The notes under the pieces are model-generated. The model was not told where the DNA came from and made no database searches. It saw only the letters and a list, made by a program, of their open reading frames with translations. A stretch of 64,000 bases of DNA, from the NCBI GenBank assembly GCA_902789665.1, contig CADAOY010000003.1, positions 62,001-126,000 of the forward strand. The letters run 5' to 3'. Source of the stretch: an uncultured Lachnospiraceae bacterium. GTDB lineage: Bacteria > Bacillota > Clostridia > Lachnospirales > Lachnospiraceae. The position numbers and the translations under genes are program-made. How positions within the stretch are numbered: the stretch's first letter is position 1; each line of letters opens with the position of its first letter. Positions 16,506-45,074 of the stretch are shown piece after piece.

Positions 16506-17372
16506 TTAGTTAGCCTTACCAGCTGCACCGAAAGCCTTGCAAAGTTCTTCAGCCTTAGCAACGATTGCTTCGCAACCTGGCTTAAGAAGCTTACGTGGGT
16601 CATAACCCTTACCTTCAAGGTCCTTACCAGCTTCGATGTACTTACGTGTAGCATCAGCAAATACTAACTGAAGCTCTGTATTGATGTTGATCTTTGATAC
16701 ACCAAGTGAAACAGCCTTTGATGTCTGCTCGAAAGGAATACCACTACCACCATGAAGAACCATTGGCTTACCATTGATAGCTGCCTGGATCTCACCAAGA
16801 CGCTCAAAGTTAAGACCAGCCCAGTCTGCTGGATATTTACCATGGATGTTACCGATACCAGCTGCAAGGAAGTCTACACCAAGATCAGCGATAGCCTTAC
16901 ACTCTGCAGGATCAGCAAGTTCACCAGCTGATGTAACACCATCTTCTGTACCACCGATACCACCAACTTCACACTCTACTGAAACGCCCTTTGAATGAGC
17001 AAGTGCGATGATTTCTTTTGACTTCTCGATATTCTCTTCGATTGAGTAATGTGAACCATCGAACATAACTGATGAGTAACCAGCTTCGATACAAGCCTTA
17101 GCTCCGTCATATGTACCATGATCTAAGTGAAGAGCAACAGGAACTGTAATTCCCATAGAATCGATAAGGTCGTTAACCATATCTACTACCATCTTGTAGC
17201 CACCCATGTACTTAGCAGCACTTTCAGATGTCTGAATCATTACAGGAGTCTGTGTCTCCTGAACTGCCTTAAGAATACACTGTGTCCACTCAAGGTTGTT
17301 TGTGTTGAATGCAGGAATGGCATAATGGCCTTCATGCGCTTTGTTAATCATCTCTGTTGCAGAAACTAACAT
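16506..17372 (-). CDS. fba: Fructose-bisphosphate aldolase, class II
   Basis: This 288-aa zinc aldolase has the metal-binding HLDHG motif and the following EAGYSSVMFDGSHY, GNIHGKYP and the phosphate-binding VLHGGSGIP loop. It cleaves fructose-1,6-bisphosphate to DHAP and glyceraldehyde-3-phosphate in glycolysis; tagatose-bisphosphate activity cannot be excluded. It has a strong GGAGG ribosome-binding site and its own terminator. The 205-nt gap upstream (17373-17577) holds its leader, a small AATGC-ATAA-GCATT hairpin and the HPr terminator. Confidence 0.92.
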   Translation of the reverse strand: MLVSATEMINKAHEGHYAIPAFNTNNLEWTQCILKAVQETQTPVMIQTSESAAKYMGGYKMVVDMVNDLIDSMGITVPVALHLDHGTYDGAKACIEAGYSSVMFDGSHYSIEENIEKSKEIIALAHSKGVSVECEVGGIGGTEDGVTSAGELADPAECKAIADLGVDFLAAGIGNIHGKYPADWAGLNFERLGEIQAAINGKPMVLHGGSGIPFEQTSKAVSLGVSKININTELQLVFADATRKYIEAGKDLEGKGYDPRKLLKPGCEAIVAKAEELCKAFGAAGKAN

Positions 17373-38291: not shown

Positions 38292-39053
38292 TTATTCCCT
38301 CTCAAATTCAAAGGTTTTAAGGAACTTTGCAGCCCTTTCAGTTTCAGGTTTTTCAAAGAATTCTTCAGGGTTGGCACTCTCTTCCACAATCACGCCATTT
38401 TCAAGGAAAATCACCCTGTCGGCTATGGCTCTTGCGAAAGCCATCTCGTGAGTTACGATAAGCATTGTACTTCCCTGTTTGGCAAGATTAAGTACAACAT
38501 CCAAAACCTCTCTTACCATTTCAGGATCAAGGGCTGCCGTAATCTCATCAAGAAGCAAAATCTCCGGGTGCATACAAAGCGCTCTTACTATGGCAACCCT
38601 TTGTTTCTGACCGCCTGACAACTGTCTTGGATAATCATTTCCCCTGTCTTCAAGGCCTACTTTCTTAAGAAGTTCAAGTGCCTCTTTCTCAGCATCTTTC
38701 TTATCTCTTTTCTGCACCTTTATTGGAGCTAAAGTAATATTCTGAAGCACGGTTTTATGAGGAAATAAATCATAGCTTTGAAATACCATTCCGATACGCT
38801 GGCGCATCTGGGATATATTCTTCGCATCCTTCCTAACCTTCTCTCCATCAAGCAGTACCTCTCCGCCCTGAATATCTTCAAGGGCATTGATACATCTTAG
38901 GAAGGTGCTTTTGCCACAGCCGGATGGACCGATGACAACAATAACCTCACCCTTATGTACCTCAAGACTTATATCATCAAGCACTACCTTCTCGCCGAAG
39001 GTCTTATGCAAATTATTTATTGTAAGTAATGTTTCGCTCAATTTTGTGACCAC
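38292..39053 (-). CDS. Polar amino acid ABC transporter ATP-binding protein (GlnQ type)
   Basis: The 253-aa ATPase has Walker A GPSGCGKST, signature LSGGQKQR and Walker B LLLDEIT. The family is that of GlnQ/HisP. It overlaps the upstream permease by 16 nt. With the two HisM-type permeases it forms one importer. The cognate binding domain is probably the N-terminal half of the fused lipoprotein at 42045. Confidence 0.88.
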   Translation of the reverse strand: MVTKLSETLLTINNLHKTFGEKVVLDDISLEVHKGEVIVVIGPSGCGKSTFLRCINALEDIQGGEVLLDGEKVRKDAKNISQMRQRIGMVFQSYDLFPHKTVLQNITLAPIKVQKRDKKDAEKEALELLKKVGLEDRGNDYPRQLSGGQKQRVAIVRALCMHPEILLLDEITAALDPEMVREVLDVVLNLAKQGSTMLIVTHEMAFARAIADRVIFLENGVIVEESANPEEFFEKPETERAAKFLKTFEFERE

Positions 39054-39718
39054 CTTTTCTCAAGATCCATGGACAGTCTGCTTATTGGAAAGCAGATGAT
39101 AAAATACATAAGCATAACTATTAGGAACACACCGAAGGCTGCATTAGGCGAAGTCTTGCGGTTTGCCTCAATTATCTGCTGTGCAACTTTCAAAACCTCA
39201 ACAATACCTATCATCATAACCAGTGATGTGGTTTTAATCATTCTGGTTATAAGATTGATGGAAAGAGGTATCATTCTTCTAATTGTCTGTGGCAGAATAA
39301 CCTGAGTATAAAGCACATAATCATTCATGCCAAGCGCCCTTGCGCTTTCATACTGAACTACCGGCACGCTCTGAAGCGCTCCTCTTACCAGGTCTCCCAT
39401 TTCTGCAATTCCCCAGAAGCTGAATACTATTATCGCTGAAAGTTCTGCAGATATATTTATTCCAAAAACTCTTGTTGTTCCAAAATATACGATGAAAAGC
39501 AATACCATCTGCGGCATTATTCTGACGATTTCAAGATATACATGACAGATGGCCTCGGCTACCCGGTTTTTACTTGCCATGATAACACCCATCACAACGC
39601 CAAACACTATACTGATGGCAACGGAGATAAGACTGATTCTTACTGCTACCCACAGGCCGCCAAGGAGTCTTACCATATTGGTTCCTTTTAATAAAACATC
39701 AATCCCCAAACTCTGCAT
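39038..39718 (-). CDS. Polar amino acid ABC transporter permease (HisM/GlnP type), second
   Basis: The 226-aa permease has about five TM helices and the EAA loop containing SARALGMNDYVLYTQVILPQTIRRM. It overlaps the first permease by 20 nt and the ATPase by 16 nt, giving a heterodimeric channel. Confidence 0.86.
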   Translation of the reverse strand: MQSLGIDVLLKGTNMVRLLGGLWVAVRISLISVAISIVFGVVMGVIMASKNRVAEAICHVYLEIVRIMPQMVLLFIVYFGTTRVFGINISAELSAIIVFSFWGIAEMGDLVRGALQSVPVVQYESARALGMNDYVLYTQVILPQTIRRMIPLSINLITRMIKTTSLVMMIGIVEVLKVAQQIIEANRKTSPNAAFGVFLIVMLMYFIICFPISRLSMDLEKRWSQN

Positions 39719-40358
39719 ATCTCATCCTCCTTTCCACAACTCTTCCAATTAAAGAAACAGGAAGGAGCATAATAAGATAGAAAATAACCAGCAGCGTGAG
39801 GCACTCGATGGTTTTGGCATACATGCCTATAAGGTCTTTTGCCGTAAACATTAAGTCCATAAGGCTGATGGTGGAGAATACCGATGTTTCCTTAAGTAAG
39901 AAAATCAGATTCGCCATAAGTCCCGGGATACTTGAGCGTACCGCCTGAGGGAGTATGACATGAATAATAGTCTGCCATCTTGTCATGCCAAGACTTAATG
40001 CGCTGTCTGTCTGAATTGCTGCTATATTATCAAGACCGCTTCTGAAACTCTCAGTCATATAGGCTCCGCCTAAGAGAGCAAGGCCTAATACGCCGCAGAA
40101 TTCCGGACTTAATCTGATGCCTATTTTGGGCAGGGCAAAATATATGAAGAATAACTGTATTAAAAGTGGAGTATTACGAAATACTTCAATATATATAGTT
40201 ACAATATGTCTTAATACAGGTATTCGAAGATGTATGATTATAACACATAGAAGTCCTATCAGTATCGCAAGCACTATGCCTTCCCAGCCAATTCTCATGG
40301 TGAGCCAGAGCGCATCCACAAAAAGCGGAAGATAGGACTGCATAACTCCAAAATCCAT
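39699..40358 (-). CDS. Polar amino acid ABC transporter permease (HisM/GlnP type), first
   Basis: The 219-aa permease has the typical EVFRNTPLLIQLFFIYFALP segment and the EAA loop (DSALSLGMTRWQTIIHVILPQAVRSS). It pairs with the permease at 39038. The gene follows the MetI-like permease by 29 nt, so both transporters share one transcript. Confidence 0.86.
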   Translation of the reverse strand: MDFGVMQSYLPLFVDALWLTMRIGWEGIVLAILIGLLCVIIIHLRIPVLRHIVTIYIEVFRNTPLLIQLFFIYFALPKIGIRLSPEFCGVLGLALLGGAYMTESFRSGLDNIAAIQTDSALSLGMTRWQTIIHVILPQAVRSSIPGLMANLIFLLKETSVFSTISLMDLMFTAKDLIGMYAKTIECLTLLVIFYLIMLLPVSLIGRVVERRMRYAEFGD

Positions 40359-40387: not shown

Positions 40388-41077
40388 TCAGGTCCTTCTG
40401 TGATCTGACTTCTTGGCTACAAGCATACCCAGACCCTGAAGAATCTGTACAATTGCAACGATAAAAATCACCGTTATCAGAGTAATGCCTGTTTCAAATC
40501 TGTAATAGCCGTAACGGATTGCTATATCACCCAGTCCGCCACCGCCTACAACTCCGGCCATGGCCGAATAACCCAAAACTGTACCAAGTACAATTGTGGT
40601 TCCAACCACCAGTGAGGTTTTGGCTTCGCCAAGAAGTACATTAATGATAATTCTGAATTTGCTTGCTCCCATACTTGTAGCAGCTTCTATTACTCCCTTA
40701 TTAACCTCCTTTAAGGAAGACTCAACCATTCTGGCGATAAGTGGAGCTGCTGCAACGGTAAGTGGAACTATGGTTGCTGTGGAGCCGTAGCTTTTGCCAA
40801 CCAGAGCCTTGGTTACCGGAACAAGAAGGATAAGCAGAATCAGGAAAGGAATACTTCTTGTTATATTAATGATTACATCAAGTATTGTATAAATAATTCG
40901 ATTTGGAGATATACCCTCCTTATCTGTTAATGTAAGGACAATTCCCATTGGAAGTCCTATTATATATCCGAAGAATGTGGATAAAAGTGTCATATATAAA
41001 GTATCTCTGATACCTTCTAAAAGAAGTACACCATATTCCTCATAAAAAGCCTGGAGAGCGATTAATAAATCATGCAT
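40388..41077 (-). CDS. metI: Methionine-type ABC transporter permease (MetI-like)
   Basis: The 229-aa permease of the D-/L-methionine class has five TM helices, the ITRSIPFLILLILLVP segment and the EAA loop AATSMGASKFRIIINVLLGEA, with GYSAMAGVVGGGGLGDIAIRYGY near the end. It overlaps metN by 8 nt. Methionine or a related sulfur compound is the expected substrate. Confidence 0.9.
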   Translation of the reverse strand: MHDLLIALQAFYEEYGVLLLEGIRDTLYMTLLSTFFGYIIGLPMGIVLTLTDKEGISPNRIIYTILDVIINITRSIPFLILLILLVPVTKALVGKSYGSTATIVPLTVAAAPLIARMVESSLKEVNKGVIEAATSMGASKFRIIINVLLGEAKTSLVVGTTIVLGTVLGYSAMAGVVGGGGLGDIAIRYGYYRFETGITLITVIFIVAIVQILQGLGMLVAKKSDHRRT

Positions 41078-41888
41078 TTATTTCTTCCTCCTCTCCTGCT
41101 TTTTCTGCATTTTCTTCAATTTCTTCACTTTGTTCTTCTGTATTTTTAATTAACAGAAGTCTCTTTGTTGCAGCGCTTGTCGGATTGTTAAATACTTCAT
41201 CCACACTGCCTGTTTCTTTAAGTACTCCTTTATCAAGTACCGCTACCTTTGAACATATCTGGCTGATTACTTTCATTTCATGAGTGATAATTACAACAGT
41301 AATATCTGATGTATCATGTATATCTTTCAAAAGCGCCAGTATTGTCTGTGTTGTCTGCGGATCAAGAGCGCTGGTCGCCTCATCGCAGAGAATTATATCA
41401 GGGTCGCTTGCAAGTACTCTTGCAATGGCAACTCTCTGTTTCTGACCACCTGATAACTGGGAAGGATAAGCTTTGGCCTTATCTTCAAGACCAACTCTCC
41501 TTAAGAGTTCCAGGGCTTTTTCCTTTCTTTCAGATGCCGGAACATGCTGAATCTCCATAGGAAAACAAACATTGGCAAGAACTGATCTTTGCTCTAAAAG
41601 ATTAAAGTTCTGGAATATCATTCCTATTTTCTGTCTTTTAAATCTTAAGTCCTTACCCTTAAGACTTTGAATATCCACACCGTCAATCAGTATCTCACCT
41701 GATGTAGGTTTCTCTAAAAGATTAAGACATCTGACGAAGGTGCTTTTGCCGGCTCCCGATAAGCCGATAACGCCAAAAATATCACGCTTTTCAATTGAAA
41801 GATTAAGGTCTTTAATCGCTTCCACGCTGCCATTTTTGGCTATGAAATTTTTGTTTAGATTCTTCACCTCGATGTAAGACATAATCAC
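41070..41888 (-). CDS. metN: Methionine-type ABC transporter ATPase (MetN-like)
   Basis: The 272-aa ATPase has Walker A GLSGAGKSTFVR, signature LSGGQKQR and Walker B IILCDEATSALD. It is shorter than the about 340-aa MetN with the C-terminal ACT-like regulatory domain: after residue about 245 there is only an acidic Glu-rich tail, so methionine trans-inhibition through that domain is probably absent. It follows the fused binding protein across three hairpins. Confidence 0.88.
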   Translation of the reverse strand: MIMSYIEVKNLNKNFIAKNGSVEAIKDLNLSIEKRDIFGVIGLSGAGKSTFVRCLNLLEKPTSGEILIDGVDIQSLKGKDLRFKRQKIGMIFQNFNLLEQRSVLANVCFPMEIQHVPASERKEKALELLRRVGLEDKAKAYPSQLSGGQKQRVAIARVLASDPDIILCDEATSALDPQTTQTILALLKDIHDTSDITVVIITHEMKVISQICSKVAVLDKGVLKETGSVDEVFNNPTSAATKRLLLIKNTEEQSEEIEENAEKAGEEEEINA

Positions 41889-42044: not shown

Positions 42045-43697
42045 TTATTCAAAAGGCACTACTGCACCATCATAAGTATTATTGATATACTCTTTAATTG
42101 CATCTGACTTAAGAACATCTGCTAAAGCCTGAATGCCTTCGTTCTCCTCATTGCCTTCCTTAACAACAAGTACATTTACGTATGTCTTAGCTGCTTCTGA
42201 ATCGCTCTTCTCGTATGCAACTGCATCCTTACCAACTGAGAAGCCTGCCTCTAATGCATAGTTACCGTTTAATACTACGAATGCTACCTCATCCTTAACT
42301 CTTGAAACCTGGGCTGCTTCTAATTCTTTGATTTCAATGTTGTTAGGATTTTCAACGATATCCTTAACTGTTGCTGTAAGACCTGCACCTTCCTTAAGAG
42401 TAATTACACCGTTATCCTGAAGAAGGAGAAGTGCTCTTGCTTCATTTGTTGTATCATTTGGTACTGCAATTACATCACCGTCTGAAAGTTCATCAAGTGC
42501 TGTTTTCTGTCCCGGATAAATTCCGAATGGCTCATAGTGGATACCTGCTACTGATACTAAAGCTGTACCATTTTCTTCATTGAAGTTATCAAGGTATGGA
42601 ACATGCTGGAAGTAGTTAGCATCGATCTCACCGCTGTCTACTACTAAGTTTGGCTGTACATAGTCTTCAAATTCGATTACATCAAGTGTCCAGCCTTCTT
42701 TTTCAAGAACCTTTGATGCCTCAGCAAGAATCTCAGCATGAGGTGTTGGTGAAGCTGCTACTGTGATTGTTCCCTTAGGTTCTGCTGGAACAGCTGCATC
42801 TTCTTCTGCTGCCTGTCCGCCTACTACACCACCTTCAACTACAAGTGTATCTTCATAATCCTTACCATATGTATCAAGTAATGTTGCTTCATAATCTGCA
42901 TGGAAGAAATTCTCATTTCCTAATGCTACGATTTCGTCATTGATCCAGTTAAGTAATGTTTCGTTACCCTTTGATACAGCAGGAGCGATTGTATCAGCGC
43001 TTCCTAATGATGGAATTCCTACTGTGTAACCTTCGTTTTCTAATGAGAAAGCGATTACTTCTGTATTATCATTTGCCCATGCAACACCATTTCTGTTTTC
43101 AAAAGCTGTCTTTGCTTCTGCATATGTGTCATATTTCTGTAAAGCTATATTTGGATACTCTTTAGCAAGATATGTCTCAGCTGTTGTACCTGAAATAACG
43201 ATCACCTGCTCGCCATCCTTAACATCATCAAGGCTTGTTAAAACTGCATCATCAGGTGATACAACGCCAAGTGCTACGTTCATATATGGAAGTGCAAAAT
43301 CAACTTCCTGTGCTCTTTCTTCTGTTACAGTAAAGTTTGCTAAGATGATATCAACCTTTCCTGTCTGAAGATATTCAATTCTGCTTGCAGCTTCAGTTGA
43401 TACGTAATTTATATCTACACCCAGGTCCTGACCAAGTCTTTCAGCAAGATATACATCATATCCCTGATACTTACCATTCTCATCTACATAACCGAATGGG
43501 CTCTTGTCTGAGAATACTCCGATATTAATTGAACCTGCTTCCTTGATCTCATCAAGTGTTCTGTATATTGCATCTCCCTCAGCAGCTGCTCCACCGTTTT
43601 CAACATTAGCACCGTTGCAGCCTGTAAGCGCCGCCGCTATTGTTAATGTTCCAAGAGCTACTGCTGCGGCTCTTTTTAAATACTTTTTGAATAACAT
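42045..43697 (-). CDS. Fused substrate-binding lipoprotein: SBP family 3 + MetQ/NlpA
   Basis: The 550-aa protein has a lipoprotein signal with lipobox LTGC (Cys27). Residues about 45-285 are a polar-amino-acid binding domain (IGVFSDKSPFGYVDENGKYQGYDVYLAERLG). 286-308 is an Ala/Glu linker. 309-550 is a methionine-binding MetQ/NlpA domain (PHAEILAEASKVL, DANYFQHVPYLDNFN, PNDTTNEARALLLL). One membrane-anchored protein thus feeds two substrate types, matching the two ABC transporters encoded just downstream. It is preceded by a Cys/Met-rich leader ORF. Fusion by assembly error is unlikely because the frame is clean. Confidence 0.9.
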   Translation of the reverse strand: MLFKKYLKRAAAVALGTLTIAAALTGCNGANVENGGAAAEGDAIYRTLDEIKEAGSINIGVFSDKSPFGYVDENGKYQGYDVYLAERLGQDLGVDINYVSTEAASRIEYLQTGKVDIILANFTVTEERAQEVDFALPYMNVALGVVSPDDAVLTSLDDVKDGEQVIVISGTTAETYLAKEYPNIALQKYDTYAEAKTAFENRNGVAWANDNTEVIAFSLENEGYTVGIPSLGSADTIAPAVSKGNETLLNWINDEIVALGNENFFHADYEATLLDTYGKDYEDTLVVEGGVVGGQAAEEDAAVPAEPKGTITVAASPTPHAEILAEASKVLEKEGWTLDVIEFEDYVQPNLVVDSGEIDANYFQHVPYLDNFNEENGTALVSVAGIHYEPFGIYPGQKTALDELSDGDVIAVPNDTTNEARALLLLQDNGVITLKEGAGLTATVKDIVENPNNIEIKELEAAQVSRVKDEVAFVVLNGNYALEAGFSVGKDAVAYEKSDSEAAKTYVNVLVVKEGNEENEGIQALADVLKSDAIKEYINNTYDGAVVPFE

Positions 43698-43800
43698 TTT
43701 TATTTTCCTCCGTTTGTTTTATAACTTTTAAGTTTTTATTTTAAGTGAAAAAGTTTTGATTTTTGTGTTTTTTATATACCCTTATAGGTTAAAGTTTCAA

Positions 43801-43869
43801 TTACATACACATTCGGTTGTATGCCAACATTACCTCGCGGCAACAACATCGTTTTAAATTGTCTCTCAT
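43801..43869 (-). CDS. 22-residue Cys/Met-rich leader peptide (uORF)
   Basis: ATG at 43869, stop TAA at 43801-43803, with a strong AAAGGAGG site 8 nt upstream. The peptide starts MRDNLKR, has Cys-Cys-Cys at codons 8-10, Met14 and ends Met-Cys-Met-stop: four Cys and four Met in 22 residues. It lies 104 nt before the lipoprotein gene, downstream of a good promoter. The SD-proximal GGCAAC can pair with GTTGCC inside the Cys codons. Leader peptides rich in the regulated amino acid are classic sensors; here Cys and Met match the transporter. The mechanism is not visible: no clear terminator follows. Confidence 0.75.
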   Translation of the reverse strand: MRDNLKRCCCREVMLAYNRMCM

Positions 43870-43907
43870 ATTGGTTGCCTCCTTTCTGTTTCCCCTGCAA
43901 TGACCTT

Positions 43908-43936
43908 ATAATAAAACGTCGTTCTTCTTTTGTCTA
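43908..43936 (-). promoter_or_regulatory. Promoter of the leader peptide / amino acid uptake operon
   Basis: On the minus strand: -35 TAGACA (43931-43936), 17-nt spacer, -10 TATTAT (43908-43913). The leader RNA to the lipoprotein ATG is about 200 nt. No SAM (S-box) or T-box consensus was recognised in it. Apart from this, the uORF and the divergent promoter, the 43698-44066 gap is AT-rich. Confidence 0.65.
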
Positions 43937-43994
43937 ATACAGGAAAACAATATTTAGTTATAAGTTTTGCTTATGGCGCCTTTTATATAGTCCA

Positions 43995-44066: not shown

Positions 44067-45074
44067 ATGAAAATCAACATATACTATGGAGGCAGAAAAT
44101 TAATTGGTGATCCAACTTTGTATGCCTTAAAAGTAATAGAAAATGTTTTATCTGAATTAAATGTAGAATATGAAAGAATTGAATTATCAGAAAAGAAGAA
44201 TGTAATCTCCACTCTTCCTAATACACTTAAGGATGCAGACGGAATTATCTTAGCGTCCACAGTTGAGTGGTTCTCAGTTGGCGGTTATATGCTTCAGTTC
44301 CTGGATGCCTGCTGGCTCTATGCTGATAAGGATGTAATATCAAAGATATACATGATGCCTGTTGTTTTAAGTACAACCTACGGAGAAAAGGAAGGACTCA
44401 ACTTCTTATCTTCTGCATGGGAAGTACTTGGCGGTAATGTGACACAGGGCGTAAGCGGGTATTTTGCAGAGCTTTCTTCTTTTGAAAATAATGATAATTA
44501 TAAGCGTCTTATCGAGAAGTCAACAGAAGGCTTATACAGAACCATCAATCAGAAGACTGCCTCACTTCCGTCAAGTAATAAGGTCATCATTAATAAGGCG
44601 ACCAAGATTCAGAACGTGGATTTAACACCTCAGGAGACCGAGCAGTTATCCAAGTATGCTTCTGATGATGAATATGTTAAGAGGCAGAAAGAAGACATCA
44701 TGGAACTCTCCCAGTTATTCAAGCACAGACTTGATGGGGAGCCGGTGGTTGAAGAGACTAAGTACATCAGTGATTTTAAGCGCATCTTTAAGCCGGTACC
44801 GGGAGTTAACGGAGTATACAAGTTCAAGATTACTGAGTATGCCAAGCCGCTTATCGTTACAGTAAATGGAACTAAGATTGACTGTGCATACAAGGAATCG
44901 GAATATGCTGATGCGGAGATTCAGCTTAAGGAAGAAATCCTTAAGGAAGTTATCGCAAGCAAGACTTCATTCCAGAGAAGTTTTATGAACGGAAAGATTA
45001 AGATAAAGGGTGACTTTAGTCAGATTAATAACCTGGATAAAATGTTCCCTTTCTATGATTATAATGAAATGTAA
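44067..45074 (+). CDS. Flavodoxin-like NAD(P)H oxidoreductase fused to SCP2 domain
   Basis: In this 335-aa protein, residues 1-170 resemble an FMN-dependent NAD(P)H oxidoreductase (MKINIYYGGRK, DADGIILASTVEWFSVGGYMLQFLDACW). A linker of about 60 residues follows. 235-335 looks like an SCP2/sterol-carrier lipid-binding domain (VNGVYKFKITEYAKPLIVTVNG... FMNGKIKIKGDFSQI). A redox domain joined to a hydrophobic-ligand domain suggests action on a lipid-like or quinone substrate (inference). Strong CGGAGG site; a HIT gene follows after 14 nt. Confidence 0.72.
   Translation: MKINIYYGGRKLIGDPTLYALKVIENVLSELNVEYERIELSEKKNVISTLPNTLKDADGIILASTVEWFSVGGYMLQFLDACWLYADKDVISKIYMMPVVLSTTYGEKEGLNFLSSAWEVLGGNVTQGVSGYFAELSSFENNDNYKRLIEKSTEGLYRTINQKTASLPSSNKVIINKATKIQNVDLTPQETEQLSKYASDDEYVKRQKEDIMELSQLFKHRLDGEPVVEETKYISDFKRIFKPVPGVNGVYKFKITEYAKPLIVTVNGTKIDCAYKESEYADAEIQLKEEILKEVIASKTSFQRSFMNGKIKIKGDFSQINNLDKMFPFYDYNEM

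Follow-up and report, generated by a model that had tools for sequence, protein, structure and literature searches.

For sulfur amino-acid genes of the Firmicutes, control is usually attributed to SAM riboswitches, T-boxes or CymR-type regulators, and the S-box (SAM) and T-box riboswitches place these same pathways under terminator/antiterminator control. Polycysteine ORFs of a leaderless kind were reportedly described in mycobacteria by Canestrari in 2020, a study cited in PMC13236596. Where a leader peptide serves as the sensor, the accessible text of one source treats the His leader of hisS/hisZ in bacilli as a ribosome-mediated attenuator of the trp/his type (PMC2965389). For cysteine, the available portion of a second source places the uORFC-8-2 motif before cysS in Rhodobacterales, with tandem Cys codons, an intrinsic terminator and a proposed attenuation by Cys-tRNA (PMC8632094), while the corresponding part of a third reports Cys-codon runs before sulfur genes, with no terminator, in the leaders of actinobacterial cys/cbs operons (PMC1262725). 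Cysteine and methionine are not mentioned in the accessible part of a fourth (PMC4833913). The literature searched, to which most subscription papers did not belong, yielded no description of Met/Cys leaders in Clostridia, and within that scope the statement of the first-pass annotation that no case had been described in the setting considered here holds.

That setting is a stretch of 64,000 nucleotides from an uncultured Lachnospiraceae bacterium, hereafter the window, in which all features given below lie on the minus strand unless stated otherwise. The leader is a 22-codon ORF with an ATG start (MRDNLKRCCCREVMLAYNRMCM; 43801..43869, stop codon at 43803-43801), preceded by a Shine-Dalgarno (SD) sequence (AAAGGAGG; 43878..43885). 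It carries three consecutive Cys codons (CCC), TGT TGT TGC, as codons 8-10 of 22 (43848-43840) and ends in Met-Cys-Met (MCM; 43812-43804). These features, the strong SD included, are as the first-pass annotation had described them, and the leader ORF is confirmed as genuine. Among the 94 SD-led short ORFs of the 64-kb window (ATG start, 12-50 aa, both strands), it is the only one that contains CCC. It lies 103 nt upstream of a fused binding-protein gene, a placement shared with the leaders of orthologous loci, and it has the regulatory-codon run in a short SD-led ORF that is a trait of ribosome-mediated attenuators. The Cys run is situated in the middle of the ORF, MCM alone occupying the 3' end, and no intrinsic terminator was found between the leader and the binding-protein gene. 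Searches of NCBIfam returned no match for the window leader or for six representative leaders, and a whole-genome pattern of rigidly spaced SD, ATG and CCC gave 0 matches with a spacing that also misses the window's own leader.

The operon behind the leader opens with a gene for a fused substrate-binding lipoprotein (SBP) of 550 aa (42045..43697), in which domain matches identify SBP_bac_3 (polar amino acid/cystine type) and NlpA/Lipoprotein_9 (MetQ-type). It continues with a MetN-like ABC ATPase (41070..41888; best match TIGR02314, below its cut-off), a MetI-like permease (40388..41077; best match NF008049, below its cut-off) and a HEAAP-type amino-acid permease (39699..40358; TIGR01726, above cut-off), followed by ORFs assigned by eye to a second amino-acid permease (39038..39718) and a second ABC ATPase (38292..39053). 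The earlier description of a MetNI-type transporter, a second transporter and a fused binding protein agrees with these domain matches and ORFs, and the predicted substrates of the Met-type and polar amino acid/cystine-type parts fit the amino acids of the leader. Rfam models, S-box and T-box included, found no match in the window. The divergent neighbour on the plus strand (44067-45074) encodes a C-terminal SCP2 domain behind an N-terminus that appears flavodoxin-like by eye, and it has no NCBIfam match.

The leader takes a far clearer form in relatives than in the window. A search for the SBP over 200 genomes of the family led to the retrieval of 60 regions, in which SD-led short ORFs such as MKNVLLTSSSNMCMCMCRMLFSQASEMTGCMAHLSCSRK precede operons of this kind. 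A second, named set was drawn from the best 80 of 192 loci, of which 75 were used, five with less than 300 nt of upstream sequence being left out. Within 450 nt upstream, a Met/Cys-rich leader is present in 54 of these 75 orthologous loci, compared with 0/75 for the antisense of the same stretches and 7/1337 for other segments of the same loci; three of the seven control positives are themselves leaders of the same family, belonging to metY (L176, L191, L197). By these counts, the original proposal survives the refutation test that was named with it, conservation of a CCC-type leader in relatives. Among the 21 loci with no leader within 450 nt, six have one farther upstream (L152, where it is weak, L153, L155, L161, L163 and L177), and the remainder have none that fits. 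One locus (L158) has two leaders, 255 and 65 nt upstream of the SBP gene, the tandem second being MKKTVYLVYEHWCCKRMPACRQCRKG.

The order of Met and Cys within the runs varies freely from leader to leader, and sensing of Met is less well supported than sensing of Cys, since some leaders (L143, L133) carry runs of Cys alone. In most leaders, the Met/Cys run is followed by R-M-x-x-S-[RQ]-A. The R-M pair is spelled CGAATG in 76 of 79 unique leaders, which were chosen because their peptides contain Cys followed by R/C/Q-M/I-x-x-[SPF][RQ], a selection that accounts in part for the conservation of R-M and S-R/Q but not for that of the codons or of the terminator side. Some relatives from the genus carry S-D-P codons (TCGGATCC) against GGGGATCCGA-type terminators, and a third, Met-richer type (MMMCSCGNMCMMM) precedes metNIQ together with GCAGGTACA-type terminators. 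Met-rich leaders of the MMMCSCGNMCMMMHM type, with the same metNIQ context and terminator type, were observed at L061, L067, L071 and L076, where they may constitute a second type of attenuator in which the run itself pairs with the terminator arm.

A terminator lies downstream of the leader in 47 of the 54 loci, with energies ranging from -2.0 to -20.6 kcal/mol and weak examples in L144 (-2.0), L143 (-4.5) and L150 (-4.9 kcal/mol). Three of the seven leaders recorded as having none (L160, L165, L201) gain one with a stricter perfect-stem finder, and at another of the seven (L159) the second leader was the one scored. Isolates with an intact attenuator include Lachnospiraceae bacterium YSD2013 (L190), XBB2008 (L191) and AB2028 (L209). 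Complementarity exists between the S-R-A codons (TCCCGGGC) and the terminator's 5' arm, and substitutions on the two sides go together: TCCCAGGC is accompanied by GCCTGGGA in 15/79 leaders, and further co-varying pairs include TCCCGGAC/GTCCGGGA and TCCCGAGC/GCTCGGGA, with others besides. At the central position, 61 of the 79 unique leaders have G-C, 15 have A-T, 2 have G-T and 1 has A-C, and their own pairing score is 1732, as against at most 1658 in 3000 permutations. For alignment, the 67 of 79 leaders with a terminator were thinned to 48, of which 43 were aligned, five (L050, L133, L147, L158, L163) being left out by choice; antiterminator pairing is poor in L133. RNAalifold, given these 43 leaders and no structure, returned a 10-bp helix that is exactly the antiterminator, in which 98.8% of cells are paired, 7 of 10 pairs are changed on both sides, and doubly changed cells number 25 vs 3.4 in shuffles. 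The competing terminator helix is 83.9% paired, compared with 60.6% in its best slid version.

The distance from the last Cys codon to the S codon is usually 12 nt, which would match the forward reach of a stalled ribosome as generally understood. An inner helix, CGAAUG/YRUUYG, occurs in 44 of the 73 leaders considered out of 79, vs 13.7 expected from mononucleotide shuffles, and has 80.5% of its cells paired vs at most 47.9% when slid; it displays no covariation, and a role as a protector hairpin is plausible, not proven. For a separate hairpin in the middle of the leader, covariation gave no support beyond that of shuffles. At 14 loci (L140-L146, L148-L151, L154, L206, L211), which were picked after being noticed by eye, the presumed 5' end of the mRNA, GAATYTGAGCA, can pair with the sequence after the U-tract of the terminator. 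Counting G-U, 10 or 11 of the 11 positions match in all 14, T-A/C-G and G-U changes are seen across loci, and the pairing could close the leader in readthrough transcripts only. This 5' element is absent from the window.

Judged by its anatomy, the element of the relatives appears to be a ribosome-mediated attenuator that reads Cys and probably Met codons. The sequences themselves show the leader, its run, the terminator, the covarying antiterminator and the gene context, and from these we infer ribosome stalling, the amino acids sensed and the direction of control. The leader peptide would carry the run of Cys and Met codons, on which the ribosome would stall during a shortage of charged tRNA-Cys or tRNA-Met. 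The S-R-A codons (RNA CUCCCGGGCA), positioned just past the leading edge of the ribosome, would then form base pairs with the terminator's 5' arm, and transcription would continue. With Cys and Met plentiful, the ribosome would reach the stop codon and disrupt this pairing, the terminator would form and transcription would end. We consider it probable that this element is a ribosome-mediated attenuator for the uptake and synthesis of sulfur amino acids in Lachnospiraceae and some other families of Clostridia, and that the window leader is a derivative of it, most likely a remnant.

The original reading of the Cys/Met leader as an amino-acid attenuator is supported in kind for the relatives, with their terminator and covarying antiterminator, and does not extend to the window copy, which is not filed as an attenuator because both parts were tested for there and not found. 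Within the genus of the window, a covariance model (R1) built from the 43 leaders matches 20 of 31 genomes; the window's own genome, where 102 of 245 first-look candidates were scored, yielded no hit, and no R1 match marks an antiterminator at the window leader. The sole R1 hit in the window (8.5 bits, E 1.7) falls at 17297-17346, far from the leader. Elsewhere in the genus, 16 genomes contain a fused-SBP match spanning 430 residues or more, and in every one a Met/Cys leader stands in front of it (16/16). In ten of these, L003 among them, a terminator was detected by a strict finder, and in L096, L098, L100, L102, L103 and L106, for which the finder failed, the evidence is a full-length R1 match.

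In the window leader, GGCAAC (43879-43874) is predicted to pair with GTTGCC (43844-43839), five pairs having a probability of 0.98-0.995 and the sixth a probability of 0.50, and the resulting hairpin (43839..43879) would cover the edge of the SD and the leader start codon, whose first two bases are also predicted to be paired. The complementarity remarked on in the first-pass annotation is therefore predicted to form, but as a local hairpin that covers the start codon of the leader itself. The accompanying idea that ribosome position could change the RNA fold found no support in the window, where no alternative structure affecting the operon was found. As a conserved switch, GGCAAC/GTTGCC was rejected because relatives pair their S-R-A codons with the terminator arm instead. 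The full 213-nt leader is no more stable than shuffles (z +0.51), and the observed spelling of the three Cys codons has the lowest fold energy among the 8 synonymous sets, a comparison that is weak in its statistics; shuffles used in the same analysis were mononucleotide.

Upstream of the leader, a candidate sigma-70 promoter, TAGACA-17-TATTAT (43908..43936; 10-of-12 match), ends 39 nt before the start codon. A promoter of the leader's own had been claimed; one 10-of-12 site does exist, but it is weak evidence, because the shuffled region yields 3.0 such sigma-70-like sites on average vs the one observed. A 23-bp box (ATAAGCAAAACTTATAACTAAAT; 43952..43974) with an ATAAG-N5-CTTAT palindrome is a candidate regulator site with two exact copies in the genome. 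The second lies at G000:C5:35611-35633, upstream of a metY-type gene (L221) of the same genome, and no third copy within 3 mismatches was found in the genome sequence searched. With at most 1 mismatch allowed, the palindrome precedes 5 of the 54 leaders of relatives, where 0.5 would be expected; it may be the site of a DNA-binding regulator, perhaps of the LysR type. Relatives in which box and attenuator occur together include L178, L208 and L209. Upstream of L221, no Met/Cys leader was found. A box common to this gene and the SBP operon suggests that the window operon may be under promoter-level control. The simplest story would begin with an ancestor that had both controls, of which the species of the window kept the promoter-level one. 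Its leader would then have derived from the attenuator, now without terminator and antiterminator, and would most likely persist as a remnant in front of an operon controlled from its promoter through the shared box.

A less likely account, which still deserves weight, is that the window leader remains functional without a terminator, with stalling at Cys or Met altering translation, Rho access or RNA decay. Its counterpart would be a second leader (MRTKDIHLNYSTRMCKPERCCK type) that lies between attenuator and gene in all six tandem-leader genomes (L003, L092-L095 and L109, the last with a partial SBP). This second leader is always 22 codons in length, contains RMC plus RCC or RCH and has many silent changes, and no terminator was found for it in those six genomes. 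The window leader also has 22 codons, with RMC in frame, although the two peptides give no full-length alignment and the form seen in the window occurs in no sister genome. The sequence ahead of the window leader is similar to that preceding the second leader of L003 (6/100 mononucleotide shuffles score as high), but the rumen S-R-A clade aligns with it better than the tandem clade does (34 vs 32; 0/100 shuffles), again over the SD/start region. The pairing of the start codon with Cys codons in their lowest-energy spelling would suit a working leader, as would the terminator-less Cys leaders in the accessible account of Actinobacteria (PMC1262725), while the unexceptional overall fold and the weak statistics of a best-of-8 comparison count against it. 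A stretch CCGRCGGGACGGCAYCAT..GCGGGAAGGYCGG was observed between the second leader and the SBP gene in L092, L094, L095 and L003, its outer stem changing by eye; it is more changed in L003 and was not seen in L093 or L109.

At the DNA level, the window leader can be aligned with those of relatives for only a short way past the SD/start region, and the case for its descent is therefore made mainly by its position, its SD and its Cys codons. This limited likeness, with 34/100 shuffles scoring as high against the leaders of the closest SBP relatives, and the failure of R1 to recognize the ORF are what would be expected of a chance ORF at the position of the relatives' leader. Such an accident is improbable for the sole CCC among 94 SD-led short ORFs, found at the expected place and distance before the one relevant operon. 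It is very improbable that, instead of reporting tRNA charging, the Met/Cys-rich peptides respond to copper or another thiophilic metal, or work through nascent-chain arrest: some MetNIQ leaders do have MMMCSCGNMCMMMHM-like sequences, which could bind Cu(I), but most genes downstream of the leaders have to do with sulfur amino acids, Met and Cys follow no fixed order, the residues conserved after the run are explained by the pairing of S-R-A codons with the terminator arm, and the usual spacing of 12 nt from the end of the run to the antiterminator fits a stalled ribosome. The best reading of the window copy is that it has been eroded or rewired, the case for a remnant being the parts missing in one genome; it may be what erosion has left of the main leader, or it may descend from the terminator-less second leader.

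The leader element is also found in front of genes of the metY, cysK and cystathionine-synthase/lyase types. Across 397 genomes of the family, the pattern C-R-M-L-x-S-[RQ]-A occurs 20 times, in 18 genomes, vs once for the reversed pattern, and a stricter DNA pattern has 8 matches in 7 of 391 genomes of the class, again vs 1 when reversed, these seven genomes belonging to three other families. Ten proteins were compared with NCBIfam, nine encoded behind leaders and the tenth being that of L221 from the window's own genome. Cut-offs were exceeded by L127 (O-acetylhomoserine sulfhydrylase, metY type), L120 (cysK) and L221 (metY type). L126, L236 and L258 are members of the same Cys/Met PLP superfamily that miss the cut-offs of the individual enzymes, and L237 (MetQ-like) and L230 (amino-acid permease) were placed below cut-off or at the domain level. 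For L131 there was no NCBIfam family, and L255 is a PepT-like peptidase, not a sulfur gene by name. A leader MKKSMSCLYLNKDSMCCCLCRMRNLGQVN was seen 795 nt upstream of the SBP gene in L212, and in L259 it precedes a gene that is hydrolase-like by eye and not a sulfur gene. Among 15 loci scanned, Rfam found tRNAs only.

On balance, we lean toward the broader view that a widespread and undescribed switch reading Cys and Met codons governs a sulfur regulon (import, metY, cysK and cystathionine enzymes) in Lachnospiraceae and other Clostridia, that the composition of the run may tune which shortage is read, and that the lineage of the window is replacing the switch with a promoter-level regulator while the leader peptide survives. 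If so, a translation-based Cys/Met sensor over a regulon of common gut and rumen bacteria would be an additional mechanism and would aid the annotation of many operons, and the window would offer a natural case of attenuator decay or rewiring in one species whose relatives retain the attenuator.

Compared with described systems, the leaders considered here differ from S-box and T-box elements in that codons would serve as the sensor, rather than binding of a ligand or tRNA by RNA, and no Rfam match was found in the window or, tRNAs aside, in the 15 loci scanned. The SD directly upstream of the window ORF is strong, unlike the leaderless start of the mycobacterial polycysteine type. Actinobacterial cys leaders, in the accessible text, resemble the window copy in having a Cys run before sulfur genes without a terminator, but they belong to another phylum and carry the run near the stop codon, whereas the Cys codons of the window lie mid-ORF. 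The uORFC-8-2 motif, so far as the available part of its description goes, shares with the relatives tandem Cys codons in an upstream ORF followed by an intrinsic terminator; that description sets it apart by another phylum, an occurrence only before cysS, Cys codons at positions 14-15 and no mention of a Met run. The window differs from that setting also in its transport operon, for which the closest named SBP matches come from Lachnospiraceae and other Clostridia. Another parallel is with trp/his-type attenuators, from which the window copy departs in having no terminator. The relatives share with them an SD-led peptide with a codon run, mutually exclusive antiterminator and terminator structures and a matching downstream metabolism, and differ in their mixed run of Cys and Met codons, in an antiterminator strand that is the coding sequence right after the run, and in their association with sulfur genes of Clostridia.
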